From a virus, in the IMG/VR virus record IMGVR_UViG_3300017991_003989, positions 1 to 64,000 of that record: 64,000 nt of DNA, one strand, 5' to 3'. Within the stretch, counting starts at the first letter, position 1. Each line of letters begins with the position of its first letter. This document shows, in pieces, positions 4,604-62,972 of this stretch. Both the position numbers and the translations under genes were made by a program. A model generated the notes under the pieces. The model was not told the origin of the DNA, did not search any database, and saw only the letters and a list, made by a program, of their open reading frames with translations.

Positions 4604-4612
4604 GCGAAGATT

Positions 4613-6901
4613 ATGACAATCAAGCAGATATTGGGTCTAGGAAATATGGGACAATTCATCAATGAGATGACGAATGAGCCCGGCTCCATTGATAGGCCAG
4701 TAGGCGGTGAAGCGAAAACAGGTGAGGGAAGAACTGTAATCTCAGATTTGGGCGACTTTTCTGTGCAGAATGAAATTCCATCGAGAGTGATAGAGACGAA
4801 AACGTCTACTACTGCGCCGTATTGCTCGTTATACAATTCATTCAGATTTGAAGCTATTCCTGTGTATAATTTCTTTGTCGAAGACGAAGAATTAAACGAT
4901 GATGAACCTAGAGGTGATAGAAAACTTAGAGACATACCACGCTATATTCATTTGAAGTGGAGGAGAGCTCCAAATACAGACAAACCACCAATTGCTAAGA
5001 GATATCCTCCTGCGACGAAGCAGATAAGAAATAGTTCTTTCGGTTTGGGACCCGCCGTTAGGTCTTCAACGAGACAGGGAATAAACTTCGACACAGATAA
5101 TGTAAGGGCGTTTTCAACAATAAGAAAGTCTGTCTCAAATGGGTATATCGCTCCCGGCACGATAAACGCTGTCGTAGAGATGCCATTGCCGAATGCAGGC
5201 GTGAGGATAAAGAGAGCTACACCGAAAGTTGATGAACAGAGCTTCTTGGAGGCTCAAGATACCGATGGGATACCAATTCATGACCTTCAATCTAATATTA
5301 ACATGAGATTGAATGGAACTCTTGGTGCATCGATCGTAAGTAAGAGCACTACATCGAAGAAGACAAAATCATCGAAGGGAAGTTTGTTTGACGGCAAATT
5401 CGCTGTGTCAAGGCAATTAGGGCTTACGACAGTGAAAAGCACAGCTGCAAGTTCTCCTGCTATATCTATGAAGATAAAAACAGCCAATGGTAATTCTCCG
5501 GGAGCGATGTCTAGAAGAAATGATAGTGAAGACGTCGTCGATGCTTTAATCGTGCAGACTGCAGATACACGAAAATATGATGATGATAGTGATTTTACTG
5601 AAGTAAGCTTCGTTAATCCAGCTATAACAGGCTTAGTTAGCGAGAAAAAGATCGACTTAATTTCTTCTCCAGATCATGCTGAGAACGCAATTGGAATAGC
5701 TCAGTTCATGCCAAATTTGGCGGTCTTAGCTGATGTAAAAGATGATATGCGGAATGAGGCGCAACCACCGTCATTTCCAGCTGTCCAAGAAGATAGTGGA
5801 ACTGAATATGTCGGTTACGTAATAGAGAAATATAAGCAAGTTGATGACGGTGTGTTCGATTTAATTGATGAAATTGAGATACCTGATGTCAATGCGACAG
5901 AATTTGTTGATACTGAGGTTTTGTATGGTGGTGTGTATCGCTATCGAATGCGCACAATACTTCGCTGGACGAGAAAGGGTAATATTAATCACGGCGGATA
6001 TGAACATGGAAATTTTGTAAATGAAGATTTTACTTCTACGAAGAGCCTAGCATCACATAAGAGTTCGTATTATCAGAGTGAGTGGAATAGAAAGTGGCAA
6101 TATTCTGCTGTGATAGATACCGTAAATCCTCCACCTCCAGATGAATTTAGGACTAGAACAGAGAGCCACAGAAAAAGAGTGGTAGTGAGTTGGAAGCTTC
6201 CCGATAATAGTCAGAAAGATATTCATTATTACAGATTATTTAGGAAAACTCAAGATGATAGTGGAAGAGACACTAGTGATTGGGAACTTTTGGACATACG
6301 ATTTGGCGCCTCCAATGTTCTGTATTTCGATAATGATGTAGATTACGGCACGAGATACGTCTATGCAGCGCAGACAGTGTCAAAACATAGCGAATTTTCA
6401 TTGTTGTCTGCTCAGCTAGCTGTGAAACTGAATGAGCAATTCAGGTTTGAGGGTGAGCATCCAATTAGACAAGTGTCAGAGAAAGGTGTAAGGCTCGATG
6501 CTGCTGGAGTATTTGAGACGAAGCCGCCGAGAAGAGTTAGACCACTGATAGTAGCACAGGATAAATTCATGCTGACATCCAGAGTAGGAGTTGATAAGCA
6601 GCCATTGATTGACAGGGATTACCACGTTAGGTTTGAAAGTCTAGACACGGGTCAGAAGAAAGAGATAATCGTCAGCATGAAATACGATAACGGTGTTCCT
6701 GTTGATGAGACGATAAATGAGGACCGCGTAGTCGTGCAGAGAGATAAGCCGGTGATGGATGAAAGGTTCATCAGGGATGCAGTAGATGGCGTGTCCGTGG
6801 GTTCATCGGGGCGAGAGAGCGACGCAGCAGCTGACAGGGGCAGAAGTCCTGGGAAATACGTGTCAAGTCTGCTTGATACCAACCCAAGTGGGTTGAAATA
6901 A
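4613..6901 (+). CDS. FnIII-like virion structural protein
   Basis: A 762-residue protein starting 9 bases after the previous stop. The N-terminal half is low in recognisable structure and contains Ser/Lys-rich stretches (about residues 235-300), possibly flexible. The C-terminal half holds two FnIII-like domains. The first runs from YVGYVIEKYKQV (near 5812) to YRYRMRTILRW (near 5937). The second runs from RVVVSWKLPDN (near 6178), through HYYRLFRKT, to TRYVYAAQTVSKHSEFS (near 6352). This is the third of three consecutive FnIII-type genes, probably one structural assembly. A GIY-YIG endonuclease gene follows directly. Confidence 0.65.
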   Translation: MTIKQILGLGNMGQFINEMTNEPGSIDRPVGGEAKTGEGRTVISDLGDFSVQNEIPSRVIETKTSTTAPYCSLYNSFRFEAIPVYNFFVEDEELNDDEPRGDRKLRDIPRYIHLKWRRAPNTDKPPIAKRYPPATKQIRNSSFGLGPAVRSSTRQGINFDTDNVRAFSTIRKSVSNGYIAPGTINAVVEMPLPNAGVRIKRATPKVDEQSFLEAQDTDGIPIHDLQSNINMRLNGTLGASIVSKSTTSKKTKSSKGSLFDGKFAVSRQLGLTTVKSTAASSPAISMKIKTANGNSPGAMSRRNDSEDVVDALIVQTADTRKYDDDSDFTEVSFVNPAITGLVSEKKIDLISSPDHAENAIGIAQFMPNLAVLADVKDDMRNEAQPPSFPAVQEDSGTEYVGYVIEKYKQVDDGVFDLIDEIEIPDVNATEFVDTEVLYGGVYRYRMRTILRWTRKGNINHGGYEHGNFVNEDFTSTKSLASHKSSYYQSEWNRKWQYSAVIDTVNPPPPDEFRTRTESHRKRVVVSWKLPDNSQKDIHYYRLFRKTQDDSGRDTSDWELLDIRFGASNVLYFDNDVDYGTRYVYAAQTVSKHSEFSLLSAQLAVKLNEQFRFEGEHPIRQVSEKGVRLDAAGVFETKPPRRVRPLIVAQDKFMLTSRVGVDKQPLIDRDYHVRFESLDTGQKKEIIVSMKYDNGVPVDETINEDRVVVQRDKPVMDERFIRDAVDGVSVGSSGRESDAAADRGRSPGKYVSSLLDTNPSGLK

Positions 6902-11121: not shown

Positions 11122-11853
11122 ATGGCAATCACATACGGGCTTTTTGACCCTAAGCACTGCATAATTCGATACGTCGGAAAGACAATACGTTCTGACGAGA
11201 AGAGATTACAACTTCATGATTATGAGGCTTTTGGGGCAAAAAGAAGAAATTGGAATAGACCAGTCTGTCGTTGGATACGAAAACTGATGAGTGAAGGTCG
11301 TTATCCTGACATCATCGTCCTCGAAGAATGTGAGACTGAGCAAGAAGCACTTGATATGGAGATAGTGTGGATAGCACGTCTTAAAGAGGATGGAGCACGT
11401 CTTCTTAATGCAACAGAGGGAGGAGATGGGATATCTGGTTATCGACATGATGATAAAAGTAAGGATAAGATTGCTGAAGCATCTCGTAATCAAGTTTGGA
11501 CAGACGAGAGAAAAAAGAAGATAGGAGATGCAATACGTGGTGATAACCATTATTTGAGAAAAAACCCTGAACTTCATCCCTTCTTGGGTAAGACACATTC
11601 TCCTGAAGCACGTCGTAAGATAGGTGAAGCGGGAAAAGGTCGTCCTGGACCAAGGAAAGGCGTAGAAGTATCGCAAGAAACTCGTCGTAGAATGAGTGAA
11701 AGTGCAAAGAAACGAAAAAGAAAACCGCGAACAGAAGAAACGAAAAGAAAAATATCAGAAGCACTTAAAGGAAGAGGTCATCCACAAACTGAAGAGACAC
11801 GTAGGAAAATTTCTTTAGCTTTTAAGAAGAAAAGAGAGAAAAAAAATAATTGA
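11122..11853 (+). CDS. GIY-YIG homing endonuclease with NUMOD3 repeats
   Basis: The N-terminus has the GIY-YIG fold: ITYGLFDP then IRYVGKT, an Arg-rich helix RPVCRWIRKLMSEG, and the catalytic-type Glu in EALDMEIVWIARLK, ending with NATEGGDGISGY. Residues about 115-240 are a run of NUMOD3-like helices (DKSKDKIAEASRNQVW, SPEARRKIGEAGKG, SQETRRRMSESAKK, TEETKRKISEALKG, TEETRRKISLAFKK). Each binds DNA in the phosphate-backbone style of this group. The very basic, A-rich C-terminus is typical. It is free-standing, between a structural gene and the resolvase gene, and I see no intron boundaries. Confidence 0.88.
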   Translation: MAITYGLFDPKHCIIRYVGKTIRSDEKRLQLHDYEAFGAKRRNWNRPVCRWIRKLMSEGRYPDIIVLEECETEQEALDMEIVWIARLKEDGARLLNATEGGDGISGYRHDDKSKDKIAEASRNQVWTDERKKKIGDAIRGDNHYLRKNPELHPFLGKTHSPEARRKIGEAGKGRPGPRKGVEVSQETRRRMSESAKKRKRKPRTEETKRKISEALKGRGHPQTEETRRKISLAFKKKREKKNN

Positions 11854-33455: not shown

Positions 33456-34625
33456 ATGGCATTTACAGCTGGCTCGACCCCTTTCGGTGTATATGATGCA
33501 GACGCAGACTTCATAGCTGATGCTGACAAGCTCGTGACATACATCAACGCGAAGCTCGGCGGTTCAAAGATTTGCGTTGAGCTCAGCTCGTCCGACATCT
33601 ACCAGTCGTTCGAGGAGGCCGCGCTAGAATACTCTGCATACATCAACCAGTACCAGTTCAAGTCTGCCGCTGCGGCCATACTCGGGTCCGCCACAGGCTC
33701 TCTAAGCGGCTCGGAGAACCGTTACCACCAGAACCTACTTGAGCATCACAGGAGGATGGCTGAGCCCTACGGAGAGCTTGCAGGAGTGGGAGGAGCGTTC
33801 GACCTTCACAGTGCATCGTTCACGACTGTCAATGGGCAGCAGAACTATGATATTCAGGACCTCATCAGTGGCTCGTTAACTGGTTCTGATGGTCGCGTGA
33901 GGAAGGCACAGATAAAGGAGATTTTTCACTTCTCACCGACTACCGCGTATCGCTTCTTTGGAACGACGTCTGCGGTGAATTACCTTAACAACCAGTTTAG
34001 TTTCGAGAGCTTCACTCCGGAGACTATCTTCTATCTGCTTCCAGTGTGGGAGGACATTCTTAGGGGGATGCAGTTTGAGACGTCCAACAGAGTGAGACGC
34101 TCGCAGTATAGCTTCGACGTGAATAATAATACAATCAAGCTCTACCCATCGCCGACGACGGCTGCCCGCATTCATTTTACCTATTGGCTGCCGAAGGAGC
34201 CCTACTCTCCTGACTACACAGATGAGAGGCTTGATGGCGTGGCAAACGTGTCAAATGCTCCGTTCGGCAACATAACGTATAGCCAGCTCAACTCTATTTC
34301 AAAGCAGTGGATTTGGAAGATGTCATTCGCGCTTGCCAAGGAGATTGTCGGCGAGATGCGAAGCAAGATGAGCACCATCCCAATTCCGAACGGTGACCTC
34401 ACGCTGAACGGGCCTGAGCTGATAAGCGACGCACGCATTGAGCAGGAGCGACTGAGGACGGAGTTACGTGAGCTGCTCGAGGAAACTACTTATCAAAACA
34501 TTGCTGCTCGAGAGGCTGAGCATGCGGAGAACGTGAATAGAGTGATAAAGGAAATTCCTCTCGGAATTTATGTAGGAACTTTTTTGCCATTCTTCATTCC
34601 ACTCTCATACTTAATAAATGGTTGA
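33456..34625 (+). CDS. Neck / head-tail connector protein
   Basis: A 389-residue structural protein of a type I recognise from T4-like environmental phages, in the neck position after the head genes. Conserved-looking segments are FEEAALEYSAYINQYQ, a beta region (INYDIQ-like, FHFSPTTAYRFFG), ARIHFTYWLPKEP and the helical MSFALAKEIVGEMRSKMSTI followed by PNGDLTLNGPELISDA. Homologues, as I recall them, end shortly after a P-x-x-I-Y-x-G motif; here PLGIYVG is followed by 16 extra hydrophobic residues (TFLPFFIPLSYLING). The frame then ends 8 bases inside the homing endonuclease gene. The C-terminal extension may thus come from endonuclease insertion. Confidence 0.65.
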   Translation: MAFTAGSTPFGVYDADADFIADADKLVTYINAKLGGSKICVELSSSDIYQSFEEAALEYSAYINQYQFKSAAAAILGSATGSLSGSENRYHQNLLEHHRRMAEPYGELAGVGGAFDLHSASFTTVNGQQNYDIQDLISGSLTGSDGRVRKAQIKEIFHFSPTTAYRFFGTTSAVNYLNNQFSFESFTPETIFYLLPVWEDILRGMQFETSNRVRRSQYSFDVNNNTIKLYPSPTTAARIHFTYWLPKEPYSPDYTDERLDGVANVSNAPFGNITYSQLNSISKQWIWKMSFALAKEIVGEMRSKMSTIPIPNGDLTLNGPELISDARIEQERLRTELRELLEETTYQNIAAREAEHAENVNRVIKEIPLGIYVGTFLPFFIPLSYLING

Positions 34626-35457
34626 ATGTAAAGAGTGTGGCAACAAATATAAGCGATTGAACATATTCCATTTACGAAAGCACGGTCTCGACGAAAAATC
34701 GTACCTTGAAAAGTATCCGGGTTCACAATTGATGGCAGATGAATGTAAAAAGAACATCTCTGAAGGCACGAAGAAGGGAATGCGTAAGGAAGCGTCGTGG
34801 GATAAGTTCATGACACATGTTAGGAATAGGGATTATACAGGTGAGAACAATTCTTTTTATGGGAAACACCATTCAGAAGAAACGAAGAGAAGCATCTCAC
34901 AGAATGAAGAGAGAAGCAGGAAAATCTCAAAGAAAAAGTCTGCTTGGTGGGCCGATGGGCGTATAGGAATGAATTTTGAAGAACTATACGGCAAAGAGAC
35001 TGCAGAAAGAGTTAGTAGAATTAAGTCTGAACAGACAACCGGTGAGAATAATCCAGCATATGGTAAAGTGTATGAGAAGACGGGTAGAAAAGTGGGAAGA
35101 TATAGAGGCATTCTATTCAGAAGTCTTTACGAATATTCTTACTATAAACACCTTGAAACACAAGACCTCTTTGAAGAGATGGAATACGAGCCATTTTCTA
35201 TACCATTTAAGCTTGATGGTAGAAAGAGAACATATACACCCGATGTATTACTAACGAGTGAAAAGAAACTCATCGAGATAAAATCGACTTACGAATTAGG
35301 AAAAGCGACAAAGCTAAATGAAGAAAAGTTCAAAGCAGCAATCAAATATTGCAGTGAAAACGACTTAACATTTGAAGTTCTAACAGAGAAGGACTTCAAA
35401 ATAATCCCGTTCAGACTTGCAGAGCGAGATGAAAATGTAGAGTGGATAAAGAAGTAG
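34618..35457 (+). CDS. PD-(D/E)XK homing endonuclease with zinc-finger N-terminus
   Basis: A 279-residue endonuclease-like protein. The N-terminus has a MucR/Ros-like zinc finger (CKECGNKYKRLNIFHLRKHG) continuing DEKSYLEKYPG. The middle has NUMOD3-type repeats (GENNSFYGKHHSEETKRSIS, GENNPAYGKVYEKTG). The C-terminal domain looks like a PD-(D/E)XK nuclease: FRSLYEYSYYKHLE supplies an acidic helix, and YTPDVLLTSEKKLIEIKS gives the PD...ExK core. This combination is known in small phage-borne homing enzymes. It overlaps the 3' end of the neck gene by 8 bases and abuts the next start. It is A+T-rich compared with both neighbours, consistent with recent insertion. Confidence 0.8.
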   Translation: MVECKECGNKYKRLNIFHLRKHGLDEKSYLEKYPGSQLMADECKKNISEGTKKGMRKEASWDKFMTHVRNRDYTGENNSFYGKHHSEETKRSISQNEERSRKISKKKSAWWADGRIGMNFEELYGKETAERVSRIKSEQTTGENNPAYGKVYEKTGRKVGRYRGILFRSLYEYSYYKHLETQDLFEEMEYEPFSIPFKLDGRKRTYTPDVLLTSEKKLIEIKSTYELGKATKLNEEKFKAAIKYCSENDLTFEVLTEKDFKIIPFRLAERDENVEWIKK

Positions 35458-35999: not shown

Positions 36000-36872
36000 A
36001 TGTCGAAGTTTAAGTTGTTCGTGGTCGCTGCGTTGTCGTGGTTCTTGATCTCTAGTTCAGGAGCAAGCATCACATTCGATGCAGCTGAGCGACAGACGTT
36101 TTACTCGGCTGTGGTAACATCGGCCGTCCTTACTAGCGCCGTCGATGACATGCCCATTGAAGCTGTGTCCCACAGTGATGCCGTAGCGAAGAGAAACGCG
36201 AGAGCTGCTCGTTCCGCAGTCTTCATTCGTGAAGATGTAGAGATAAAGGATATTCGTGGAAATGAACGAGAAGTAAAGGGAGCATCGACGGGCTCCGGTA
36301 CTGTCATCGCGGTGAGGTGGGATGGCAAGTCTAGTCTTATCCTAACAGCACATCACGTCTGCACTAATTCTTATGATGTCGGTGATGTCGTGGTATATGA
36401 TAGGTTCGTGATAACATCGACAGTCAAAAAGTTGGTGACGTTCGATGGCGATGAGATGGACGTCCGCGTGTTACATGAAGATAGAGATAACGACCTTTGC
36501 GTCATGGAAGCTGACGGAAAGGCGGGTCTCGTCGCTCCATTGACATCGTATTATCCTCCTCTCGGCGCTAGCGTATACACAGCGGGAGCGCCGTCTGGAC
36601 AGTGGGGCAAGGGGACAGCAAACATAGTCATGGGCATCTTTTCTGGCGTAGTAGAAGAAGACATAAGTTATAGCGGTTATGTAGGAAAGAAGTTTCTTCA
36701 GTGTTCGATACCGACCATCGGTGGGATGAGCGGCTCTAGCATATATTACAGGGGCAAAGTCATCGGTGTGTTGGTTGCTGGTCATACATCGTATGAACAC
36801 CTCATGTATGGTCCAGGTCCTGGCGTTACGAAGAAGGCCGTTGAGGCGGCCATGGAAATTTGGAATAAATGA
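36000..36872 (+). CDS. Secreted trypsin/HtrA-like serine protease
   Basis: A 290-residue protein with an N-terminal Sec-type signal peptide (positive MSKFK, hydrophobic LFVVAALSWFLISSS, probable cleavage after GAS or nearby) and no lipobox cysteine. A chymotrypsin-fold protease follows with a full triad: His in LTAHHVC (H119), Asp in DNDLCVMEA (D165) and Ser in GGMSGSSIYY (S244). The GTGSGTVI-like strand (ASTGSGTVIAV) before the His is typical of HtrA-type proteases. No PDZ domain follows. It would act in the periplasm or outside the cell. It sits among neck genes and overlaps the next gene by ATGA. Its job could be envelope remodelling, superinfection exclusion or lysis; none can be chosen from sequence. 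Confidence 0.85.
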   Translation: MSKFKLFVVAALSWFLISSSGASITFDAAERQTFYSAVVTSAVLTSAVDDMPIEAVSHSDAVAKRNARAARSAVFIREDVEIKDIRGNEREVKGASTGSGTVIAVRWDGKSSLILTAHHVCTNSYDVGDVVVYDRFVITSTVKKLVTFDGDEMDVRVLHEDRDNDLCVMEADGKAGLVAPLTSYYPPLGASVYTAGAPSGQWGKGTANIVMGIFSGVVEEDISYSGYVGKKFLQCSIPTIGGMSGSSIYYRGKVIGVLVAGHTSYEHLMYGPGPGVTKKAVEAAMEIWNK

Positions 36873-37714
36873 CAAGAGAGAACGCGCATTACCGTTCCAT
36901 AACAATAAGGGACGTCGATGAGAGCATTCGCGATTGGTTTCGTGATAGGGTTGACGTGCACGTAAAGACGCCGACTGACGAGCTGAAGAAGGTTCCTGTT
37001 CTTTTCGCTTCCGGTGAGCGGTGGGCGACGAATAGGGATCAACGCGGGATAAGAGACAAGAATGGTTTGCTAATTCTCCCTCTCATCAGCATAAGACGTG
37101 TTAGCATGGAGCGTACCAAGGATAGGATGGCACTCGGCGTTGAGAAGGAAACCATGACTATCGCGAGGCGTGTAGATAAAAAGTCAAACACAATACAGAA
37201 TGCGATATCAGAGAGAGAAGCGCCGTTTAGAGCAAAAGATGATAAGGTAGTATACGAGATAACGACCATACCGTATCCAGATCATTTCACGACGACATAT
37301 GAAGTGATTTTCTGGGCACAATATATCGGGCAGATGAATACGATGATAGAGAAGGTTTTCGACAGTTTTGACCTTCAGAGCTCGTTCGTCATGCCGATAG
37401 CGGAGACGCGGTTCGAAGGAAATCCTAAAGATGATAGGGACTTCGAGGAGAGGAAGCCGCTCGTCGGAAGGACGTATTTCGTGGGATACGTAGACACCGA
37501 TGTTTCAGACGCTGGGAATTTTGAGGAGTTTACGGACCAGGAGAGAATAGTTAGGTATTCATTTAACGTAGAAGTTCCGACGTACCTTGAGCTTGAAACT
37601 GACGGTGAGAGACCCGTCCCACAGAGAAAATACACGTCATATCAGATTAGCATGGGCGACGAGAGCGTTACTTTCGTTGATGATCCAGAAGAATTAGATA
37701 AGATTTTTTCCTAA
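36869..37714 (+). CDS. Neck/tail structural protein (T4-like, conserved)
   Basis: A 281-residue protein recognisable as a conserved T4-like environmental phage structural protein at the neck-sheath boundary. Motifs are VPVLFASGERWATNRDQRGI, NGLLILPLISIRRVSMERTK, then PYPDHFTTTYEVIFWAQYIG and QMNTMIEKVF. The ...YEV.IW..YI.QMN pattern is typical of this family, often annotated as gp14-like or a tail completion protein. It overlaps the protease by ATGA and precedes the sheath gene by 115 bases. No enzyme motif. The exact T4 equivalent is uncertain. Confidence 0.6.
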   Translation: MTRENAHYRSITIRDVDESIRDWFRDRVDVHVKTPTDELKKVPVLFASGERWATNRDQRGIRDKNGLLILPLISIRRVSMERTKDRMALGVEKETMTIARRVDKKSNTIQNAISEREAPFRAKDDKVVYEITTIPYPDHFTTTYEVIFWAQYIGQMNTMIEKVFDSFDLQSSFVMPIAETRFEGNPKDDRDFEERKPLVGRTYFVGYVDTDVSDAGNFEEFTDQERIVRYSFNVEVPTYLELETDGERPVPQRKYTSYQISMGDESVTFVDDPEELDKIFS

Positions 37715-37829: not shown

Positions 37830-40193
37830 ATGGCTCAGAAGTTCATTAGTCCGGGCATTTTTACCACTGAAATCGACCAAAGTTTCGTAGGACAGGCGCC
37901 AGCGGGCGTAGGAGCTGTCATTGTTGGCGGTGCCGAGAAGGGTCCGGCATTTGAGCCCGTGAGGCTCGCAAATTTTCAAGAACACTTAGAGCGTTTTGGA
38001 AATCTGAACGTTCTCCACCAGGCATCATATGCCTCGAGGAACTATCTCGCTAACTCTGGTATCATGCATCGCGTGAGAGTTCTTGGTCATGACGATGGGA
38101 CGGGTGTGAACAACGGATATCAAGTGGGAGGAATAACGGGAATAACAGACGCATCAGGCTCAGATGACGTGACAGGTTCGATCATGGCCGTCATTCATCA
38201 CTCCGGTACGTCTAGCGAGCTATCTGTTGTAGGAGTTTCGGATGACGGCGACAGGTTCGTTTTTACGATCGGAACTTTCTCAGCAACAGCATCGTTCTTG
38301 ACAAGTTCGGCAGATTACATAGAGAAGGTCCTCAATACCGACCCGACGCGATACACGACAGATAATCACTATCTCTACCAAACCTTTAAATACACGCCAG
38401 TGGCAGCGAGCGCGTCTTGGCATCTAGTGGCTGTGTCGGGAGCAGATGACCTGACGCTGAATGATTTTCAGAAAAACTACGCTGGAGGCTCGACGCCGTG
38501 GGTGAAATCGCAGCTCATTGGAGCTAACGAATATGATCTTTTTAAGTTTCATACGAGAGCACATGGCCGTGTGACTAACGATGAGCTGAAGATTTCGATA
38601 AGAAACGTCAGACCGTCAATAAACACAGAAGCAACTCCGTACGGAACATTTGATTTAGCGGTAAGGAGCTTCTACGACACAGACCTTAGACAAGAAGTTC
38701 TTGAGACATTCGCTAATTTGACTTTGGACCCGAACGACAAGAACTACATTGCTCGTCGCATCGGAGACCAAATTGAGACATTTGATACTGATGAAAGAAA
38801 GATGGCCAAGGTCGGTGACTACGCGAACAAGTCCAATCACATTCGTGTAGAGATAAACAAGAACAACGGTTCTCCGCCAGAGGCACTTCCATGGGGATTT
38901 CGTGGATACACGAAGATGCTATACTCTGGTTCTGATACAGATGAAGGCGAAGAAACGACGACATTGTATCAAATTGATGATATGACGTATACTCCAAACA
39001 TGAGAGATAAAAATTCTGTCTGGAATGCAGGCATTCACTGGGGTGTCCTCTTTGTTTCGGGTGGCGTTGTAGACAGGATGAGAGCCGTTCCGAACCTAGA
39101 CACAGCGGCGAAATTGCTCCTGACGGGCTCAGATGCTGATTTTTCATTGAAACACCTGTCGGGAACTTACGAAAGCGGCAAACTTCGCTACCACTACAAT
39201 ACAACACAGGAAGATTACGCGCCAATTTACGGCTCGGCGTCACTGCAACAATTCACTATGCCACTTGAAGGTGGTTTTGATGGTTTCGATTTTCGCACTG
39301 AAAATTCGCTTGACGTGTCGAATACTGCAGCTGACACTAACTTCGTCGTAACTTCGATGAAGAGAGCACTTGACGTCATCGCTGATCCTGATTTTATCGA
39401 TGCAAACTTGCTTGTTGTTCCCGGCGTGCACAACACTGTCGTCACCGACCATGCTAGAAATGTTGTTAACGACCGCAGAGACATGATTTACATCATGGAT
39501 ATCACGGGCTCGACGGTCACGCAAGCGATTGACAACTTGAAGTCGAGAAACATTGACGACAACTACTCTGCTGTCTATTACCCAGATGTAAAAATCGATG
39601 ATGAGGTGAACAACAGAGTGGTCAGAATTGCACCATCAGTCGTAGCTGCAGGCGCGATTGCTTATAATGACAAGATAGCGCAACCGTTCTTTGCACCAGC
39701 AGGAATGAACAGAGGTGGTTTAGATCAGTTTTCAGTCGTCGACGTCGTCGATAGGTTAAACTACACGAATAGGAGTGACCTATATGATAACCGCATCAAT
39801 CCCATCGCGTCATTCCCGAATGAGGGAATAACGATTTGGGGCCAAAAGACTATGCAAGTAGCGGCAAGTTCTTTGGACCGCATAAATGTTCGTAGGCTTC
39901 TCATTTTTGCAAAAAGGACTATCAAGGTTGCATCGAAAGAGTTAGTCTTTGAGCCGAACAACAGTTCGACTTACACTAAATTCACGAACAAGGTTAATCC
40001 AATCTTGGAGAAAGTTCGTCAAGACCGAGGTATCGAGAGGTTCAAGGTTGTCATGGATGTGAACACAAACACTCCTGATGTCGTTGATAGGAATACGATG
40101 GTAGGAAAGATATTTCTTCAACCTACGAAATCGGTTGAGTTCGTCGACTTGCGTTTTATCATAACGAACGCGGGCGTGCAGTTCGAAGAATAA
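37830..40193 (+). CDS. 18: Tail sheath protein (gp18-like)
   Basis: A 787-residue contractile sheath subunit, larger than T4 gp18 (659). The N-terminus ISPGIFTTEIDQSFVG followed by GVGAVIVGGAEKGPAFEPV is the diagnostic sheath opening. The middle (about residues 90-420) is a surface-exposed Ser/Thr-rich expansion. The C-terminal core has the conserved pattern INPIASFPNEGITIWGQKTM, INVRRLLIFAKRTI and FKVVMDVNTNTPDVVDRN ending with a beta strand VEFVDLRFIITNAG. Contraction drives the tube through the envelope. A strong GGAGATA site precedes the ATG. Confidence 0.95.
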   Translation: MAQKFISPGIFTTEIDQSFVGQAPAGVGAVIVGGAEKGPAFEPVRLANFQEHLERFGNLNVLHQASYASRNYLANSGIMHRVRVLGHDDGTGVNNGYQVGGITGITDASGSDDVTGSIMAVIHHSGTSSELSVVGVSDDGDRFVFTIGTFSATASFLTSSADYIEKVLNTDPTRYTTDNHYLYQTFKYTPVAASASWHLVAVSGADDLTLNDFQKNYAGGSTPWVKSQLIGANEYDLFKFHTRAHGRVTNDELKISIRNVRPSINTEATPYGTFDLAVRSFYDTDLRQEVLETFANLTLDPNDKNYIARRIGDQIETFDTDERKMAKVGDYANKSNHIRVEINKNNGSPPEALPWGFRGYTKMLYSGSDTDEGEETTTLYQIDDMTYTPNMRDKNSVWNAGIHWGVLFVSGGVVDRMRAVPNLDTAAKLLLTGSDADFSLKHLSGTYESGKLRYHYNTTQEDYAPIYGSASLQQFTMPLEGGFDGFDFRTENSLDVSNTAADTNFVVTSMKRALDVIADPDFIDANLLVVPGVHNTVVTDHARNVVNDRRDMIYIMDITGSTVTQAIDNLKSRNIDDNYSAVYYPDVKIDDEVNNRVVRIAPSVVAAGAIAYNDKIAQPFFAPAGMNRGGLDQFSVVDVVDRLNYTNRSDLYDNRINPIASFPNEGITIWGQKTMQVAASSLDRINVRRLLIFAKRTIKVASKELVFEPNNSSTYTKFTNKVNPILEKVRQDRGIERFKVVMDVNTNTPDVVDRNTMVGKIFLQPTKSVEFVDLRFIITNAGVQFEE

Positions 40194-40869: not shown

Positions 40870-41433
40870 ATGCCGTATTATAGCACAATTCAAGGAGCTT
40901 CTGGTTCTGACGGAGCTGACGGGGCTGACGGGGCTGACGGGGCTGACGGGGCTGACGGGGCTGACGGGGCAGCGGGTCCAACGGGTTCGACTGGACCGGG
41001 AGGTCAGACTGTCTGGGTTGCGGCATCGGATGCATCTGGTAGCGAATATGCCAATGGTCTATCATATGTTCCTCTACTGTCGGCATCTGCTCACCAGATT
41101 GAGTTTCAATACATTGCGCCTGAGACGGGAGACGTTGAAGTAAACGTCATCTACGCTATGAGTGCGGCAGATACTGGGACTGTCGAGTGCCAGCTGGATT
41201 TCGCGACAATCGCCACAGGCAGCGCTCCAACTACGGGTTTCGTCTCACAGGATCCGTTCATCGTAACTCCTGGCAACGACGCTAACATGCACGCAATAAA
41301 CGCGTCAAACACGTCGTCGATGACATTCAGTCCAGCAGATGGCGACATCGTCTTATGCACGTTTCAGAGGTTGGCATCGGCTAATGATACACATCCAGGT
41401 AGCATGAATATTATTGAAGTAAGGGTCAAGTAA
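40870..41433 (+). CDS. Collagen-like fibre/decoration protein
   Basis: A 187-residue protein whose N-terminus (about residues 9-42) is a Gly-X-Y collagen-like run with six GAD triplets, then GAAGPTGSTGPGG. The C-terminal ~140 residues are a beta-sandwich (HQIEFQYIAPETGDVEVNVI and so on). Phage collagen-like stretches form trimeric triple helices in short fibres or capsid spikes. It has its own AGGAGAAAGAGG site immediately after a terminator, so it is probably the first gene of the next transcript. The GAD triplets come from an exact 9-base tandem repeat. Confidence 0.72.
   Translation: MPYYSTIQGASGSDGADGADGADGADGADGADGAAGPTGSTGPGGQTVWVAASDASGSEYANGLSYVPLLSASAHQIEFQYIAPETGDVEVNVIYAMSAADTGTVECQLDFATIATGSAPTTGFVSQDPFIVTPGNDANMHAINASNTSSMTFSPADGDIVLCTFQRLASANDTHPGSMNIIEVRVK
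40912..40965 (+). repeat. 9-bp tandem repeat encoding Gly-Ala-Asp
   Basis: One GGAGCTGAC followed by five identical copies of GGGGCTGAC in frame. Near-perfect identity at the DNA level, including third positions, points to recent slippage expansion; copy number may vary between individual genomes. Confidence 0.95.
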
Positions 41434-42015
41434 ATGTTGAATCGCAAAGACCAAAATTTTAAAGCGTTTTTCATCAAGGATTTTCTTAACGACCAAACGA
41501 GAAGCTGGACGAACGAAAAGTCGAACACTGATGACATAGAGTTATCGGCGTCTGTCGGCATGGGTTCTGATGATGGAGATACTACTGTCGTTCTCATGGG
41601 CATGGGAGGGTTTAGAGACCAATACGCTTCTGCGAGATTAAAATTCATAAGCCCAACTGTAACAGGCTCTGAAGACATCGGTATCTGCATAAGAATATTG
41701 ACAATGGATGCTCCCGACGCTGCATACTATTATGCTCGCGCCGATGGGGGCATCGCGAAGTTGACGAGAGTGAGCAGTGGGTCGTTCACGAACTTGTCAC
41801 AGTCAGCATTCGCGCTTGCAGAAAATCAGTGGTGCAGAATTACATTACAAGCAGTGGGGAACGTTCTGTCGGCGTCATTTGTTGCCGACGGCGGAACGCC
41901 AGCAGCCGTAAATTTGACCGCCGTAGACAGCAGAATTCCGACTGGTGGGTCAATGTGCTTCAGGTCGATGAGCTCCACTGTCTTTTGTGAAAGCTTTACG
42001 GGCTCACAACTGTAG
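41434..42015 (+). CDS. Jelly-roll (LamG-like) virion protein
   Basis: A 193-residue protein starting on the base after the previous stop. Its order of strands fits a concanavalin/LamG-like domain: SARLKFISPTVTGSEDIGIC, AAYYYARADGGIAKLTRV, ENQWCRITLQAVGNVLSASF and GGSMCFRSMSSTVFCESF. A closely similar strand order occurs in the domain inserted in the next gene's peptidase. It is probably a carbohydrate-contacting decoration or fibre part. No catalytic residues are evident. Confidence 0.6.
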   Translation: MLNRKDQNFKAFFIKDFLNDQTRSWTNEKSNTDDIELSASVGMGSDDGDTTVVLMGMGGFRDQYASARLKFISPTVTGSEDIGICIRILTMDAPDAAYYYARADGGIAKLTRVSSGSFTNLSQSAFALAENQWCRITLQAVGNVLSASFVADGGTPAAVNLTAVDSRIPTGGSMCFRSMSSTVFCESFTGSQL

Positions 42016-42023
42016 GACGAAAG

Positions 42024-43493
42024 ATGTTCGCGAAAAGGAAAAAGGGGCAAAGAGGAGAGGGAAAGGGCGTCGTTTGGCCAGACACGGGAACGTCAGTGCC
42101 ATCTGATGATGTCAGAGATGTGTTCGGTCCCAGGCCGTTTAGCGCACACTTGTCTACTGTGGGGTACGATTACGATTTTCATCGAGGCGTAGACATAGGA
42201 GGATATAATCAGGGAGATAACGTCTATGCGTCGATAAACGGTGGGATAATAAGGCAACACTACACACATTTCGGTTGGGAAGCAGACATTCAGATGGACC
42301 GCTGGGTAGAGATAGATGCTAGCGGTTCTGCGACATTTACAAGGCAGGGAGACAGTTACTTAAGAGTGACAGGTGATAGAGTTGGGTCACAAGATTTAGT
42401 TACGGGAGCGGCGAGATATCAATCGAGAGATGTCTTGCAGCCCAAGGGTGATGATTGGCTCGTAGAGTGCGTGTTATCGGCCTCATACTCGTCAGTTACT
42501 GGCGCATTTGGTTTTGGTATTTACGATCCCACGACCGATGAGCACGCTACATTGGAATATGATGGGGCGGATTTTACGATAAAGGGTGCGCACGTCAGCG
42601 GAACGATGGAAGTTGATGGGACGACTGACGCGACGGCCGGTAAGGTCTGGCTTCGTGTGGAGTGGGATGACAGTTTGGGGACGTTGAAGTGGAGACATTC
42701 TGATGATGGCGATAGCTGGACCGATATAACGACGACTGGGAGCGTCTATTGGTCTGGAGATGACGCTGCGACATTCAATGTCGTGTTGTACTGGAAGTCT
42801 ACTGACACTGATGCCGCGCAGGAGACTGTAGATATTGACTTTTTGGGTTGGATTGATGACCAGACGATAGGACGTTTCGGAAATTGGATGTTGATAACGG
42901 ACGGCGACAGGTCTTTTATGAGCGTTCATCTCAGGGAAATATCTTCGTCACTGGGAGATTACGTTCACGCTGGACAGTTAGTCGCTCACGTGGGAACTAC
43001 GGGTTTCGATACGACGTCAGGAAGAATAAGTTATCCACACATTCACTCAGAGTATCTGACGAGCTCGACCTACCTTTACAACAATGCCTACGGACAAAAT
43101 CCGCTGAGGCATGGCGTGTTGCCAAGAGCGTCGACGCTGACATCTCTGACTGTTAATCGTTTGGACTTAAAATTAGATCCTGGGAACTCCGGAAGTCAGG
43201 CTTTGGAGATAACGGCGAGCAGGGGAGCGAACCAAGCGTTCGACGTAAACTACGTCATTTTCACTGGTTCTAGCGGTCAAACGTCTTTCAATTTTGATAC
43301 GAGAGATGGGTTGAATGCCAACAACGATATACCTTTTAACAATGGCGTCTACATCGTTCCTGAGAGTTTCGACGAGAATGACGACGCGTATATCATGACA
43401 GTATATTTCCACACTTCAAGTTACGGAGACACGTTTACTTCTGCGGCGATCCATGATAGTGACGGAAATGTTTTGTGGATCGAGGTCACTTGA
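42024..43493 (+). CDS. M23 (LytM-type) peptidase split by an inserted jelly-roll domain
   Basis: A 489-residue protein with an M23 zinc endopeptidase core: DFHRGVDIGGYNQGDNVYAS supplies H53 and D57 of HxxxD, FMSVHLREI supplies a later His (about 302), GDYVHAGQLVAHVGTTG follows, and SYPHIHSEY supplies the HxH pair (H339, H341). Between the first and second half, about residues 84-283, a LamG-like beta domain is inserted (SATFTRQGDSYLRVTGDR ... AGKVWLRVEWDDSLGTLKW). The M23 sequence resumes at IGRFGNWMLITDGD. C-terminal to about 360 is another beta domain. M23 enzymes cut peptide cross-bridges of peptidoglycan, so this is likely a virion-borne wall-degrading enzyme, placed with the fibre genes. 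Confidence 0.82.
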   Translation: MFAKRKKGQRGEGKGVVWPDTGTSVPSDDVRDVFGPRPFSAHLSTVGYDYDFHRGVDIGGYNQGDNVYASINGGIIRQHYTHFGWEADIQMDRWVEIDASGSATFTRQGDSYLRVTGDRVGSQDLVTGAARYQSRDVLQPKGDDWLVECVLSASYSSVTGAFGFGIYDPTTDEHATLEYDGADFTIKGAHVSGTMEVDGTTDATAGKVWLRVEWDDSLGTLKWRHSDDGDSWTDITTTGSVYWSGDDAATFNVVLYWKSTDTDAAQETVDIDFLGWIDDQTIGRFGNWMLITDGDRSFMSVHLREISSSLGDYVHAGQLVAHVGTTGFDTTSGRISYPHIHSEYLTSSTYLYNNAYGQNPLRHGVLPRASTLTSLTVNRLDLKLDPGNSGSQALEITASRGANQAFDVNYVIFTGSSGQTSFNFDTRDGLNANNDIPFNNGVYIVPESFDENDDAYIMTVYFHTSSYGDTFTSAAIHDSDGNVLWIEVT

Positions 43494-47336: not shown

Positions 47337-47822
47337 ATGGCAGAAAGACTTGAAATTGGCGACATGTTGGCGCTTGATTATGAGCCGAAGAGGAAATTTA
47401 GATGGTTCCTCGAGATTGACGGCCAGGATGCCTTCGTCATGAAGACGGCGGCGCGTCCCCAAGCGACGTTCGAGGAGACGGTCATCGACTACATCAACGC
47501 TAAGCGTTGGATATCTGGGAAGCAAGCGTGGAACCCGATCGCGGTGACGCTTCATGACCCAATCAATCCGTCTGCGGCAAATAACGTGATGCAGTGGATG
47601 AGGCTGAATTACGAGAACCGCACGGGACGCATGGGATATGCTAGCGTCTATAAGAAGGACATCACCCTGAAGCTGCTCGACCCTGAGGGAAATGTGGTGG
47701 AGATTTGGGATCTCAAGGGAACGTGGCCCATGGACATCAACTGGGGCGACTTGGATTATGCCAGCTCCGACAATGTCGAAATCTCGATGAGCTTGAGATT
47801 TGATAACGCTATCTTGCTCTAA
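47337..47822 (+). CDS. 19: Tail tube protein (gp19-like)
   Basis: A 161-residue tube subunit, equal in size to T4 gp19 (163). Motifs are KFRWFLEIDGQDAFVMKTAA, VTLHDPINPSAANNVMQWM, KKDITLKLLDPEGNVVEIW and the diagnostic LKGTWPMDINWGDLDYASSD, which continues into a strand EISMSLRFDNA. It polymerises on the baseplate inside the sheath and forms the DNA conduit. A GGGAGAAAG site precedes the ATG and a terminator follows, so it forms its own short transcript. Confidence 0.92.
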   Translation: MAERLEIGDMLALDYEPKRKFRWFLEIDGQDAFVMKTAARPQATFEETVIDYINAKRWISGKQAWNPIAVTLHDPINPSAANNVMQWMRLNYENRTGRMGYASVYKKDITLKLLDPEGNVVEIWDLKGTWPMDINWGDLDYASSDNVEISMSLRFDNAILL

Positions 47823-59414: not shown

Positions 59415-62400
59415 ATGAAAAAGATAGATGAGGTCATCATCGATGTCCTCGGTGAGCTGTCTGGATGGAAGACGGCGACGACGACCACGACGGTGGATAA
59501 GACTGGCCCCGGAGGCTCAAGAAGCCGGGGCCAATTTGCTAAGAGCTACCCGATTGGCGGGATGATCGCGGACCCCGATGAGCGCCCTGAGCTCGACGAT
59601 GGGACGACCCCGAAGCTTGAGAGAAAGGAAGAGAAGAAGGGCGAGGATTTGGGCTTCGGCTTCAACGACGCAGGCTACCCTCTTCAGGACAAATACGAAT
59701 TCCAGGGCATGCCAATCGCCATAGAGAACAGCGCAGGTTCCGTCAGAAAGTGGTATGATGAGAACGGAGATGAGACCGGTCAGACGGAGATGCACAACGA
59801 CTACGGTTACATCGAAGGTGTGAAGGGAGTTGATAAAGATGAAGTCGATGTCTATGTCGGCTCCAATCCAGATGCCGAGTTCGTCTTCGTCGTGCATCAG
59901 ACCAAGAAGCCCGACTTCGAAGAATATGATGAAGATAAGGTGATGCTCGGCTTTGAGCTTGAGGAGCACGCGAGAGAGGCATACCTTAAACATTACGACG
60001 ATGACCGCTTCTACGGTGGGATGTCGAGCATGCCAATCAGTGCATTCAAGGAAAAGCTTAAGGACAAAGAACCGAAGATAACTAACGAGGCTGCTTTCGA
60101 TGGAGAAGAAGAAAGGGCGATATATGGCCTCGGTGATGTGATGACGGACCCATGGGTCGTTGCAAAAGTCAGAGGGAGGGGATACGACATATCTGATCAT
60201 GCTGTGTTGGGTTCTGGAGGAATGGGAACTGCGTTCGACATAGGCAATAATAGAGTATTAAAGTTGACGACGGATGAAGATGAGGCGAAGTCGAGCAATC
60301 ACATAAGAGGGAAGAACATGAAGAATGTCGTCAGGGTGTTCGACGTGTTCAAATTGCCGAAGGAACGCTCTGGAAAAGCAGGAGACGTTTACGGCATCGT
60401 GCAGGAAAAGCTGCAGGAGATGCCAAATGACAAGGAAGAACAGTTCACTCAGGCGATGCGTGACCTCAAGAGCGCGACTGGCGTTGCCACGAAATACTTT
60501 ATAAACGGTCGTCGATGGGACGCATTCGTCGGTGATGTGATAACGAAAGCGGCGAGGCGTGGAAAAGAGGATGTAGCGAGGAAAGCGCTTGCACAGCTTG
60601 AAGATCTTGAGATGAATGACATGGTGGACCAATTGAACACCGCTAACGTAGAGTTCGAGGACTATCATCCCGGCAACATTATGATGAGAGGCACGAACTT
60701 CGTCATCACAGATCTCGGCTTCTCACAATCGCCGGGAGCGGATCCTGACGTGCTTGAGGCGACGGCTGTGACGAGACCGACGAACTCGATGGCCGCTAGA
60801 GCTGCTGTTGCTACCGCGCAGCTTGACCCATCATTCTTCGAGAAATGGAGCGACAAGCTGCTGAGACGTGGCATTGATACGCATGGAGCGAGGGAGCTCG
60901 GACACGGCTCCAACGGAACGGCGTTCCAATTGAAGTCTGGTGAAGTCCTGAAAGTCACAAAGGATAAGATGGAAGCGAAGACGAGCGCTTACATCAAGGG
61001 TAAGAAGTTGAGGAACGTCGTGCAGATATATGATGTGTTCAAGTTCCCCGCGCCGAACGACGTGTATTATGGCATCTTGCAAGAGAAGCTGCAGGACATG
61101 TCATCAACAGAAGTCAGGAGGTTTGATGACTTGGATGACCTCCTTCAGGATGCAGTTGAGGACAGTGATGAGTGGAGGGGAGACAACGAGACGACTTCAG
61201 GCGGATACTACTCCATACTCACTGGGTTAAAGAACATGACCTGGGACGAGTTCGAGGAATACATCTATCATTACGTGAAGACGCCGCAGGCTAAGCTCAA
61301 GGCGAAGCGTGCTCTCGCCATGTTAAAAGACCAATTTCAGCTGGATAAGATTGCTGATCAGCTCGTCGGTATAGGCATTCAGTTTCACGATTACCACACC
61401 GGCAATATAATGAGACGCGGTAACGAGCATGTCATTATCGATTTAGGTGTGTCGAGGTCTCCGGCGCCTGGCGAAATACCGACGCTCGAAGCTGTAATTA
61501 GGGAACAGTTGCTCTCTCTCTTTGAGGGCAGCATCTCCAATGTAGATCTGCGAAGGGCATTTAAGTCAGTTTCGCCAGAGACGAGGAAAAAGGCGATCGA
61601 GTTCTCGAAGAGACATGGAGGGATGGGTTCTCTTATTGGTATGATGAGAGACATGGCTGGGTGGATCTACGGAAAAGATAATATTAAGAATGAGGGTGGC
61701 GCTCACACGACGAAAGAAGACATTCCGTATCTGTGGAAGAACAAGGGCGCAAGAAACGAACTGTTCTCTATGCCATCAAAGCCACTGTTTAGAGGAATGT
61801 CGTTTGATGAACGAGTTGGTGATGAGGGTGATAGGAAGAGACTTAAGTCGAAGGGAATGTTCTCATCATGGTCGACAGACCCAGATGTTGCAGAGGGATA
61901 TGGTGACGAAAAAAGATATAGCTTTCTGTTCAAGCTGATTGGTGGCAACTATGATTTATTGTTCTCTGACAAAGATAACACTGTCAGTTGGTTTGACGAA
62001 TTGTTTGACATATACGTCGAGAATACCTTCATAAAATCAAGACAATACGAGAGAGAGACAGTCTTGATAGGCAAAGAATTTGATGTCGTCATAGACGCAA
62101 TCTATGATAATGACTTCGCTCGCAAGGGCATGGGTCTTACTGAGGCGAAGGCCGACACCGTCGTCGTGGTCCTAGGTCGCTTCCAGCCGTTCCACAGAGA
62201 TTGGTCAGAGGAGATACGACAGCTTGCTCGTGAATTTACCAAAGTGGTCCTCATCGTCGCTGGCAACAAAAAAGATGAGCTGAACCCGTTCTCATACGAC
62301 ACGAGAGTAAAGATGATGAGAGCATCGATGCCGGATGTTGAGCCGAAGCTGGAGGTGTATCGTGCTACCTATGATGGCGTGGATAGTTTCTATCTTCCTG

Positions 62401-62972
62401 GCATCATAGCAGACATCATCGCAGATCACAACTCCTCCATTAGGCCTGACACTGCGACGACCGTGTTGGCAGAACCTAGCCGCTTCGATGAAATAGAGGC
62501 TCAGTTTGACAAGGCGAGGACTGAAGATGAGAATGAGCTGTTTGACCCAAATCTATACAGAGTTCAAAAGTTTGAGCCGCTGGGTGACGATGAGGGAAAA
62601 CAATTGAATGTTCAGTCGAAGCAAGCAGTGATGAATGATGATAAGGAAGCGTTCAGAGGAATGGTAGATGAACATCTTGCTTCCAATGATAATGCATTCG
62701 ATCACATATGGCAGAAGTTGAAGGATGACATTACACCTTTTGACATCGAGGAGATGATCGGTAAGATGGTGATGGAGTTCATGGGAGCCGGCGTGATGGG
62801 CGGCACACACAATACAGCGGGCCTCGGGCACATTGCCGGACGCGGACCATCGGGTGCGTCCGCCTGGTCGAACTCAAGCATGCGTCGATATACTGATCCG
62901 TCAATCTACGGCGACGATTTTACTGCTGGCGATGTCAAGCGTGGCAACGATGATGATGACGACCTCGACTAA
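59415..62972 (+). CDS. Giant multi-domain effector: PPase-like, two kinase-like, ADP-ribosyltransferase, NMNAT-like
   Basis: A 1185-residue protein with AGGAGAA before ATG 59415. Domains in order: short N-terminal helix (MKKIDEVIIDVLGELSG); pyrophosphatase-like domain of phage polyvalent proteins, about 90-217 (DYGYIEGVKGVDKDEVDVYV, YDEDKVMLGFELEEHAREAY); kinase-like domain 1, about 260-440 (GSGGMGTAF, RVLKLT, DYHPGNI, ITDLGF); kinase-like domain 2, about 490-685 (GHGSNGTAF, EVLKVT, DYHTGNI, IIDLGV); ADP-ribosyltransferase, about 780-900 (LFRGMS, FSSWSTDPDVAEGY, QYERETVLIG giving R-S-ExE); nucleotidyltransferase, about 913-1060 (LGRFQPFHRDW, NPFSYDTRVKMM), where the usual HxGH reads HRDW; and a Gly/Asp-rich tail. 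Such composite proteins are thought to be packaged and injected to modify host targets at the start of infection. Both kinase domains keep the Asp, Asn and DLG residues. Confidence 0.82.
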   Translation: MKKIDEVIIDVLGELSGWKTATTTTTVDKTGPGGSRSRGQFAKSYPIGGMIADPDERPELDDGTTPKLERKEEKKGEDLGFGFNDAGYPLQDKYEFQGMPIAIENSAGSVRKWYDENGDETGQTEMHNDYGYIEGVKGVDKDEVDVYVGSNPDAEFVFVVHQTKKPDFEEYDEDKVMLGFELEEHAREAYLKHYDDDRFYGGMSSMPISAFKEKLKDKEPKITNEAAFDGEEERAIYGLGDVMTDPWVVAKVRGRGYDISDHAVLGSGGMGTAFDIGNNRVLKLTTDEDEAKSSNHIRGKNMKNVVRVFDVFKLPKERSGKAGDVYGIVQEKLQEMPNDKEEQFTQAMRDLKSATGVATKYFINGRRWDAFVGDVITKAARRGKEDVARKALAQLEDLEMNDMVDQLNTANVEFEDYHPGNIMMRGTNFVITDLGFSQSPGADPDVLEATAVTRPTNSMAARAAVATAQLDPSFFEKWSDKLLRRGIDTHGARELGHGSNGTAFQLKSGEVLKVTKDKMEAKTSAYIKGKKLRNVVQIYDVFKFPAPNDVYYGILQEKLQDMSSTEVRRFDDLDDLLQDAVEDSDEWRGDNETTSGGYYSILTGLKNMTWDEFEEYIYHYVKTPQAKLKAKRALAMLKDQFQLDKIADQLVGIGIQFHDYHTGNIMRRGNEHVIIDLGVSRSPAPGEIPTLEAVIREQLLSLFEGSISNVDLRRAFKSVSPETRKKAIEFSKRHGGMGSLIGMMRDMAGWIYGKDNIKNEGGAHTTKEDIPYLWKNKGARNELFSMPSKPLFRGMSFDERVGDEGDRKRLKSKGMFSSWSTDPDVAEGYGDEKRYSFLFKLIGGNYDLLFSDKDNTVSWFDELFDIYVENTFIKSRQYERETVLIGKEFDVVIDAIYDNDFARKGMGLTEAKADTVVVVLGRFQPFHRDWSEEIRQLAREFTKVVLIVAGNKKDELNPFSYDTRVKMMRASMPDVEPKLEVYRATYDGVDSFYLPGIIADIIADHNSSIRPDTATTVLAEPSRFDEIEAQFDKARTEDENELFDPNLYRVQKFEPLGDDEGKQLNVQSKQAVMNDDKEAFRGMVDEHLASNDNAFDHIWQKLKDDITPFDIEEMIGKMVMEFMGAGVMGGTHNTAGLGHIAGRGPSGASAWSNSSMRRYTDPSIYGDDFTAGDVKRGNDDDDDLD

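Follow-up and report, generated by a model that had tools for sequence, protein, structure and literature searches.

Gene content of the locus and its relatives

The window analysed here is a stretch of 64,000 nucleotides, corresponding to positions 1-64,000 of a viral source record of 69,959 bases. It carries genes of a contractile-tailed phage, including terminase, portal, major head protein, sheath and tube. The gene at 42024-43493 encodes an M23 peptidase interrupted by a second domain (Table 1); enzymes of this type usually cleave cell-wall peptides. The gene is placed between the sheath and tube genes, within a run of fibre-like genes, and thus lies in the tail gene cluster, where virion-associated lysins are encoded.

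Table 1. Coordinates of the features at the locus (positions of the window)
Feature	Position	Strand	Basis
Tail sheath gene	37830..40193	+	PHROG tail sheath, E 1.2e-67
Tail-fibre-like gene with collagen-like repeat and beta domain	40870..41433	+	Pfam Collagen, E 1.7e-6; PHROG tail fibre
Preceding gene, 193 aa, probable partner	41434..42015	+	homologue directly upstream of the M23 gene in 5/5 lineages
M23 peptidase with nested concanavalin-A-like domain, 489 aa, ATG start	42024..43493	+	ORF; Pfam M23, E 8.5e-9
N-side M23 piece, residues 31-81 (FGPR ... HxxxD)	42114..42266	+	Pfam M23 profile 2-30 when searched alone, E 0.061
R37 codon, place of the oxyanion-stabilising Arg/Tyr of M23	42132..42134	+	invariant in 5/5 inserted proteins
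H53 to D57 codons, HxxxD zinc ligands	42180..42194	+	H53 and D57 invariant in 11/11 aligned M23s
Inserted concanavalin-A-like beta-sandwich, residues 82-282, M23 loop 2	42267..42869	+	gap in 6/6 intact M23s; structural matches
C-side M23 piece, residues 283-361 (middle His, HxH)	42870..43106	+	Pfam M23 profile 32-89 when searched alone, E 1.2e-6
H302 codon, catalytic His before HxH	42927..42929	+	invariant in 11/11
H339 and H341 codons, HxH motif	43038..43046	+	H341 in 11/11; H339 in 10/11
C-terminal beta-rich domain, residues 373-489	43140..43490	+	50.2% mean pairwise identity, 27 invariant positions
Downstream gene, 104 aa	43549..43863	+	common to L006, 40% identity, E 1e-15
Tail tube gene	47337..47822	+	PHROG tail tube, E 3.8e-33

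The whole protein and parts of it served as queries against 2.9 million viral contigs. The same protein was found on five other contigs, namely 3300043411_002818 (L002), 3300032397_000005 (L006), 3300021579_000038 (L011), 3300050175_000081 (L003) and 3300050002_000040 (L004). The L003 and L004 proteins are identical as far as L004 reaches; with the window included, there are six contigs and five distinct phage proteins. The four other distinct proteins match the window protein at 35-40% identity over most of its length, and the insert is present in all five.

The surroundings of the gene were compared among these contigs. From residue 40 on, the non-collagen part of the product of 40870-41433 has homologues further upstream in the other four lineages, the one of the L003/L004 lineage being seen on contig 3300050002_000039 (L014). 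L002 also has the window's sheath and its gene 36869-37714; neither had a match in the other members within the flanks covered. A partial match to the sheath was found in the L006 record and none in the four shorter member contigs. Near the M23 gene of L003 there are a baseplate wedge subunit and a tail-lysozyme-like match. Three further phages are related in this region: in L017 and L018 a sheath gene is accompanied by relatives of both upstream genes, and L019 carries relatives of the preceding gene and of the sheath. In L017, tandem related genes of about 250 residues each lie at 2162-5954 between fibre-like genes and are possibly duplicated structural proteins.

Several other genes on the plus strand of the window were recorded. 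Shortly upstream of the sheath gene, 36000-36872 encodes a trypsin-like serine protease (Pfam Trypsin_2, E 2.8e-17) with a hydrophobic N-terminus. An inorganic pyrophosphatase domain (PF18823, E 5.2e-37) lies at the N-terminus of the 1185-aa product of 59415-62972, which also gave weak matches to nucleotidyltransferases and phosphotransferases and may be a fused multi-enzyme. The genes at 11122-11853 and 34618-35457 bear NUMOD3 and are probable homing endonucleases, one with a weak GIY-YIG match and one with a TnsA-like endonuclease domain.

A complete M23 signature split by an insert

With the whole ORF as query, Pfam M23 (PF01551) matched only residues 283-345, covering positions 31-88 of the 96-position profile, at 35.9 bits against a gathering score of 28.7 bits. 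One of the five other member contigs lies over this cut-off and four lie below it. We then searched the two sides of the domain separately. The N-side pieces alone matched the profile from position 2 or 3 to 28-30 in four of the five proteins (E 0.011-0.061), with M23 as the sole Pfam match in these four; the N-side piece of L003 alone gave no Pfam match. The C-side pieces alone matched from position 30 or 32 to 89-92 in all five (E 3.4e-7 to 1.1e-4). The N-side and C-side matches are complementary, indicating that a single M23 domain is interrupted. At the level of whole contigs, G004 showed M23 profile pieces 2-30 and 30-90, and in G003 the two pieces overlap in the profile (3-63 and 14-92) with no clean meeting. 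A phmmer search against solved structures paired lysostaphin with residues 289-361 (E 0.0011), and the same output held a second lysostaphin piece in which query residues 47-85, containing H53 and D57, correspond to the N-side of the domain at -1.4 bits, which is not significant alone.

The HxxxD and HxH motifs, the third catalytic His (H302) and the Arg (R37) of an M23 peptidase were found in all five inserted proteins, in which R37, H53, D57, H302, H339 and H341 are invariant. The split has been kept in five proteins whose inserts are only 26-44% identical to each other with all six catalytic positions unchanged, and it is therefore more than a chance arrangement. We also considered whether HxxxD might be a chance motif and ruled this out, since the N-side pieces of four of the five proteins match M23 only, in register, and the model folds with HxxxD included. 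Among the 11 aligned M23s, the single exception at H339 is the degenerate intact protein L009. The window protein does not contain a continuous M23 domain of ordinary length, its insert comprising 201 residues. Continuity of the domain is usual for M23 peptidases and does not define the family. H53 and H339 are 286 residues apart, compared with 80 for the matching histidines 29 and 109 of EnpA (PMC8269130, excerpts), and M23 domains average about 131 aa (PMC9662197, excerpts). The available parts of the latter source also give the roles of the zinc ligands, of both catalytic His and of the oxyanion Arg/Tyr place, and name His78 of EnpA and His329 of lysostaphin as the counterparts of H302.

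The insert occupies loop 2 of the M23 domain

A scan of the genome collection returned one relative, the bacterial protein L009 from a Mariniphaga MAG. It is intact, matches on the N-side and has FGPR...GYDYDFHxGVDIG without an insert, and it has lost the first His of HxH. A scan for ordinary M23 domains gave eight loci, of which L030-L033 report the same match, so five ordinary M23s were used (L030 and L034-L037). Together with L009, the intact set numbered six. When aligned with the inserted proteins, each of the six leaves one long gap, at 82-282 in five (201 residues) and at 82-287 in L009 (206 residues).

The position of the gap was compared with EnpA, whose loop 2 runs from Ser55 to Gly61 and joins strands 4 and 5 (PMC8269130, excerpts). 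In the match to EnpA 6smk (E 0.01), query residues 273-331 pair with chain residues 49-107, so loop 2 falls at query 279-285. On the N-terminal flank, EnpA D33+22 corresponds to D57+22, that is, residue 79. Because loop 2 maps to 279-285 on one side and to 79 on the other, the insert replaces loop 2. Loop 2 is one of the four loops lining the substrate groove, and the insertion lies at the groove's rim. According to the accessible sections of PMC8269130 and PMC9662197, M23 specificity lies in variable loops around a conserved active site, and the former adds that the further part of the groove's primed side varies through loops 2 and 4. Loop 2 seems to be the most flexible loop of lysostaphin (PMC4286107, excerpts).

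These results agree with a preliminary description of this DNA, which had put H53, D57, H339 and H341 at the positions found here and had proposed that the M23 domain is split: the split is real. Its insert boundaries, 84-283, were within 2 residues of the alignment gap, and the homologue survey for intact M23s that it suggested yielded six proteins with a clean gap of 201-206 residues. Its placement of the insertion at the hairpin before the GN strand was borne out by the Pfam pieces and the model.

In the same Mariniphaga MAG, the PF01551 match to ORF C204 is broken into profile segments 2-60 and 62-96, with about 24 residues between them; a smaller insert at a different position in an M23 domain therefore exists.

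Structure models of the peptidase and the sandwich

We built two models. Model 1 covered the full length, with an alignment of 4 phage rows only, and reached pLDDT 59.9 and pTM 0.50. Its residues 78-280 match concanavalin-A-like sandwiches (best Z 16.7), including the phage J-1 Dit CBM2 (5ly8, Z 15.1) and lichenases and lectins (Z 14-16). Clostridial neurotoxin receptor-binding domains appeared in Foldseek as generic sandwich matches. No M23 was among the 50 matches listed for this model in each of two structure comparisons, one of which was Foldseek.

Model 2 was made with AlphaFold2 for residues 31-372 from five inserted and six intact M23 rows, and reached pLDDT 80.5 and pTM 0.80. On its residues 1-338, lysostaphin 4qpb superposes at Z 16.6 and 1.7 A over 117 of 133 residues, and LytM 2b13 at Z 16.6 and 1.5 A over 116 residues; in the model, the LytM beta-sheet fold is thus predicted to be formed by both motif segments. 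Further M23 matches were DipM, ShyA, EnpA (6smk, Z 15.9), EnvC and Csd3. Model residues 48-249, equivalent to protein residues 78-279, match GH43 C-terminal sandwiches (best Z 17.2) and lichenases. These superpositions indicate a single domain built from both M23 segments and a second one formed by the insert, although the M23 fold may be partly imposed, since six intact M23s stood in the alignment. Both ends of the sandwich lie on the same hairpin, and the peptidase therefore folds around it. The M23 matches came from the VIA comparison; the 50 matches listed by Foldseek were sandwich proteins only.

The preliminary description had named failure of the HxxxD and HxH segments to pack together as the outcome that would count against it. 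The prediction was run, and the two segments pack together at the deviations given above. Its expectation that the M23 fold could survive the insertion likewise held in model 2.

Identity of the insert and of the C-terminal domain

The insert is predicted to have a jelly-roll sandwich fold, as judged from its modelled superposition on 6ms3 (Z 17.2, 183 residues, 3.1 A). It had been described as a LamG-like beta-sandwich. The beta-sandwich is supported by the model, but LamG is not: the fold is broadly concanavalin-A-like, and none of the five inserts matched Pfam LamG at E ≤ 1 (the HMMER filters drop most matches above 0.1). No named carbohydrate-binding family was matched by the insert in PDB sequence or Pfam searches. 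Against PDB sequences at E ≤ 1, three antibody chains were returned (E 0.16-0.77). Weak Pfam matches below the cut-off were BIg21 for residues 180-220 of the window protein (E 0.097), DUF4178 for the L011 insert (E 0.0087) and two for the L002 insert (E 0.19 and 0.65). Many sandwich proteins, many of them unnamed, were among the 50 matches listed from the viral structure library, and no M23-labelled entry was among them.

The likeness to a beta-sandwich in the preceding gene, also part of the preliminary description, found no counterpart in sequence: profile-profile comparison of the insert with that gene gave a probability of 0.1, and the best BLASTP match had E 1.2. The preceding gene itself matched nothing among PDB sequences at E ≤ 1.

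The C-terminal domain shows strands in model 1 at low confidence. It had no Pfam match at E ≤ 1 (3 pieces scanned) and no PDB sequence match at E ≤ 1, and viral scans with it found it only in the inserted-M23 family. Although no other part of the five M23 proteins is better conserved, it belongs to no known family.

Conservation and distribution

Across the five lineages, mean pairwise identity was highest in the C-terminal domain (50.2%), followed by the N-side piece (49.0%), the C-side piece (44.5%), the upstream gene (42.2%) and the insert (29.6%). Only the N-terminal tail (residues 1-30, 27.4%, 4 rows) fell below the insert. The insert is the most divergent folded part and thus fits the expectation for a recognition module. 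The identity matrices of the M23 part, the insert, the C-terminal domain and the upstream gene correlated weakly over the ten pairs (-0.28 to 0.64), so they show neither co-inheritance nor domain swapping. A recent arrival of the insert in this phage was ruled out, given that all five lineages have the split and that the GC content is 0.505 in the insert and 0.474 in the rest. Four other virus lineages have the same design, which indicates that it is a real, conserved variant.

The wider distribution was then assessed. We ran tblastn against 50,697 phage records. The window protein had no match at E ≤ 1e-3, nor did the preceding gene at E ≤ 0.01 or the L006 homologue at E ≤ 0.1; the L011 homologue gave one marginal partial match (MT836340, E 0.04, query 258-366). 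The window, L006 and L011 proteins therefore have no relative over most of their length in these records. A profile of the five proteins recovered all six member contigs at E ≤ 5.4e-154 and neither of two sheath-bearing relatives. Among the matches listed for 296 Bacteroidota genomes, with at most 7 candidates scored per genome, this profile had none at 1e-8. On the Mariniphaga MAG it gave two partial matches only, at 1.1e-7 (positions 6-50) and 6.7e-4. With PF01551, the best matches listed for 60 genomes of the order of L009 were continuous, from profile position 1 or 2 to 95 or 96; since these are the best matches per listing, split M23s could be hidden in the same genomes. NCBIfam had no match for four of the five proteins at E ≤ 0.01 and one for L006, far below the cut-off. 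Among the open-licence papers listed by literature searches, no title or abstract opening described an insert in an M23 domain, whether in loop 2 or elsewhere, or a concanavalin-A-like domain in a phage M23.

Comparison with known systems

The M23 domains of lysostaphin and LytM (4qpb, 2b13 and 4zyb) resemble that of the model over the whole fold, at 1.5-1.8 A over 116-117 residues, and have HxxxD, the middle His and HxH in common with the window protein (PMC9662197, excerpts). In them loop 2 is short, whereas in the window protein it is a 200-residue domain, and the oxyanion place holds Tyr instead of Arg. The cell-wall binding domain of lysostaphin is separate and not nested in the catalytic domain as here, according to the sections of PMC4286107 at hand. 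EnpA, a prophage M23 (6smk) and thus also phage-encoded, has a similar M23 fold (Z 15.9) and Arg at the oxyanion place, as in the window protein (PMC9662197, excerpts), but its loop 2 comprises only Ser55-Gly61 (PMC8269130, excerpts) where the window protein has a whole domain. For phi29 gp13 and other virion-associated M23 lysins, compared by description only, the available parts of PMC9662197 place the M23 domain on the phage tail for entry and mention no large insert.

A comparable architecture is found in the evolved Dits of siphophages (phage J-1 Dit with CBM2, 5ly8, and skunavirus evoDits), where a carbohydrate-binding domain sits inside a tail protein core whose two ends are conserved. 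The window insert superposes on J-1 Dit 5ly8 at Z 15.1 in model 1, and in the skunavirus evoDits adsorption is helped by inserts of 168 or 319 aa (PMC10688798, excerpts). Dit is, however, a structural baseplate protein and no enzyme, whereas the carrier in the window is a peptidase with the insert beside its groove. The best fold match of the insert was the C-terminal sandwich of a GH43 beta-xylosidase (6ms3, Z 17.2, 3.1 A, 183 residues). Identity in the GH43 matches was 10-18%, and the window insert, in contrast, has no glycosidase partner and is nested in a peptidase.

Proposed function and alternatives

Computationally, a complete M23 signature is split at loop 2 in a protein modelled as two folds, conserved in five lineages and encoded among tail genes. 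The product of 42024-43493 is most likely a tail-associated peptidoglycan endopeptidase whose loop 2 has turned into a surface-binding domain. Stated in full, our reading is of a catalytically competent, tail-borne M23 zinc peptidase of the lysostaphin/LytM type, in which loop 2 has become a concanavalin-A-like domain of about 200 residues that binds a ligand and positions cutting during entry; we give it a probability of about 0.62. The peptidase would be carried on the phage tail or its fibres, where the conserved C-terminal domain may anchor it. The sandwich would bind a host surface ligand beside the groove's primed side, most likely a glycan and perhaps the peptidoglycan strand itself, and this binding would set the peptidase on its wall peptide during entry. 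A peptide bond of peptidoglycan would then be hydrolysed by zinc catalysis, as expected of an M23 with this residue set.

The same fold and an active enzyme are also compatible with a sandwich that has no host ligand and serves as a docking or oligomerisation module to tail fibre proteins, for example the product of the upstream gene. That gene is directly adjacent in all five lineages, and proteins with a sandwich fold are common in the viral structure library. A concanavalin-A-like fold can also serve a purely structural role. The insert does not, however, behave like a fixed docking surface, since it diverges fastest of the folded parts (mean identity 29.6%, compared with 42.2% in the upstream gene and 50.2% in the C-terminal domain). 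As an anchor, the C-terminal domain is the better candidate. In addition, the upstream gene is retained in the related phages L017 and L018, whose records contain no M23. We therefore regard a docking role as rather unlikely. It is distinctly less probable that the protein is a secreted or lysis-stage endolysin acting outside the virion, with the sandwich as an ordinary cell-wall-binding domain oddly placed. Against an endolysin speak the position of the gene among fibre-like genes, flanked by sheath and tube, the recurrence of its upstream neighbours in relatives and the lack of any strongly hydrophobic stretch in the protein (highest mean over 19 residues, 1.18). In favour are the occurrence of M23 domains in phage endolysins (PMC9662197, excerpts) and the finding of no second M23 in the viral record at E ≤ 0.001.

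The M23 part might instead be degenerate and inactive, serving as a scaffold like that of EnvC or NlpD, so that the protein binds only. A large insert beside the groove could block it, and non-catalytic M23 folds are known (PMC9662197, excerpts). Loss of activity nevertheless appears highly improbable, because none of the six catalytic positions varies among the five inserted proteins, whereas the first His of HxH is missing from the intact bacterial L009. For the preferred reading of an active, tail-borne peptidase, one further idea, which we hold to be unlikely, is that the nested sandwich acts as a specificity gate: once ligand-bound, it would shape or open the groove's primed side, and cutting would follow only after the correct host surface had been recognised. 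If this is true, recognition and cutting would be joined in one fold, with a groove loop exchanged for a lectin-like domain.

In five phage lineages, a complete domain stands in place of one specificity loop of an M23 peptidase, and the active site has been retained. This is a natural design for a wall-cutting enzyme in which the targeting domain sits on the groove itself and not on a linker, and it offers a bench-testable case of a possible coupling of recognition and cutting at the phage tail.
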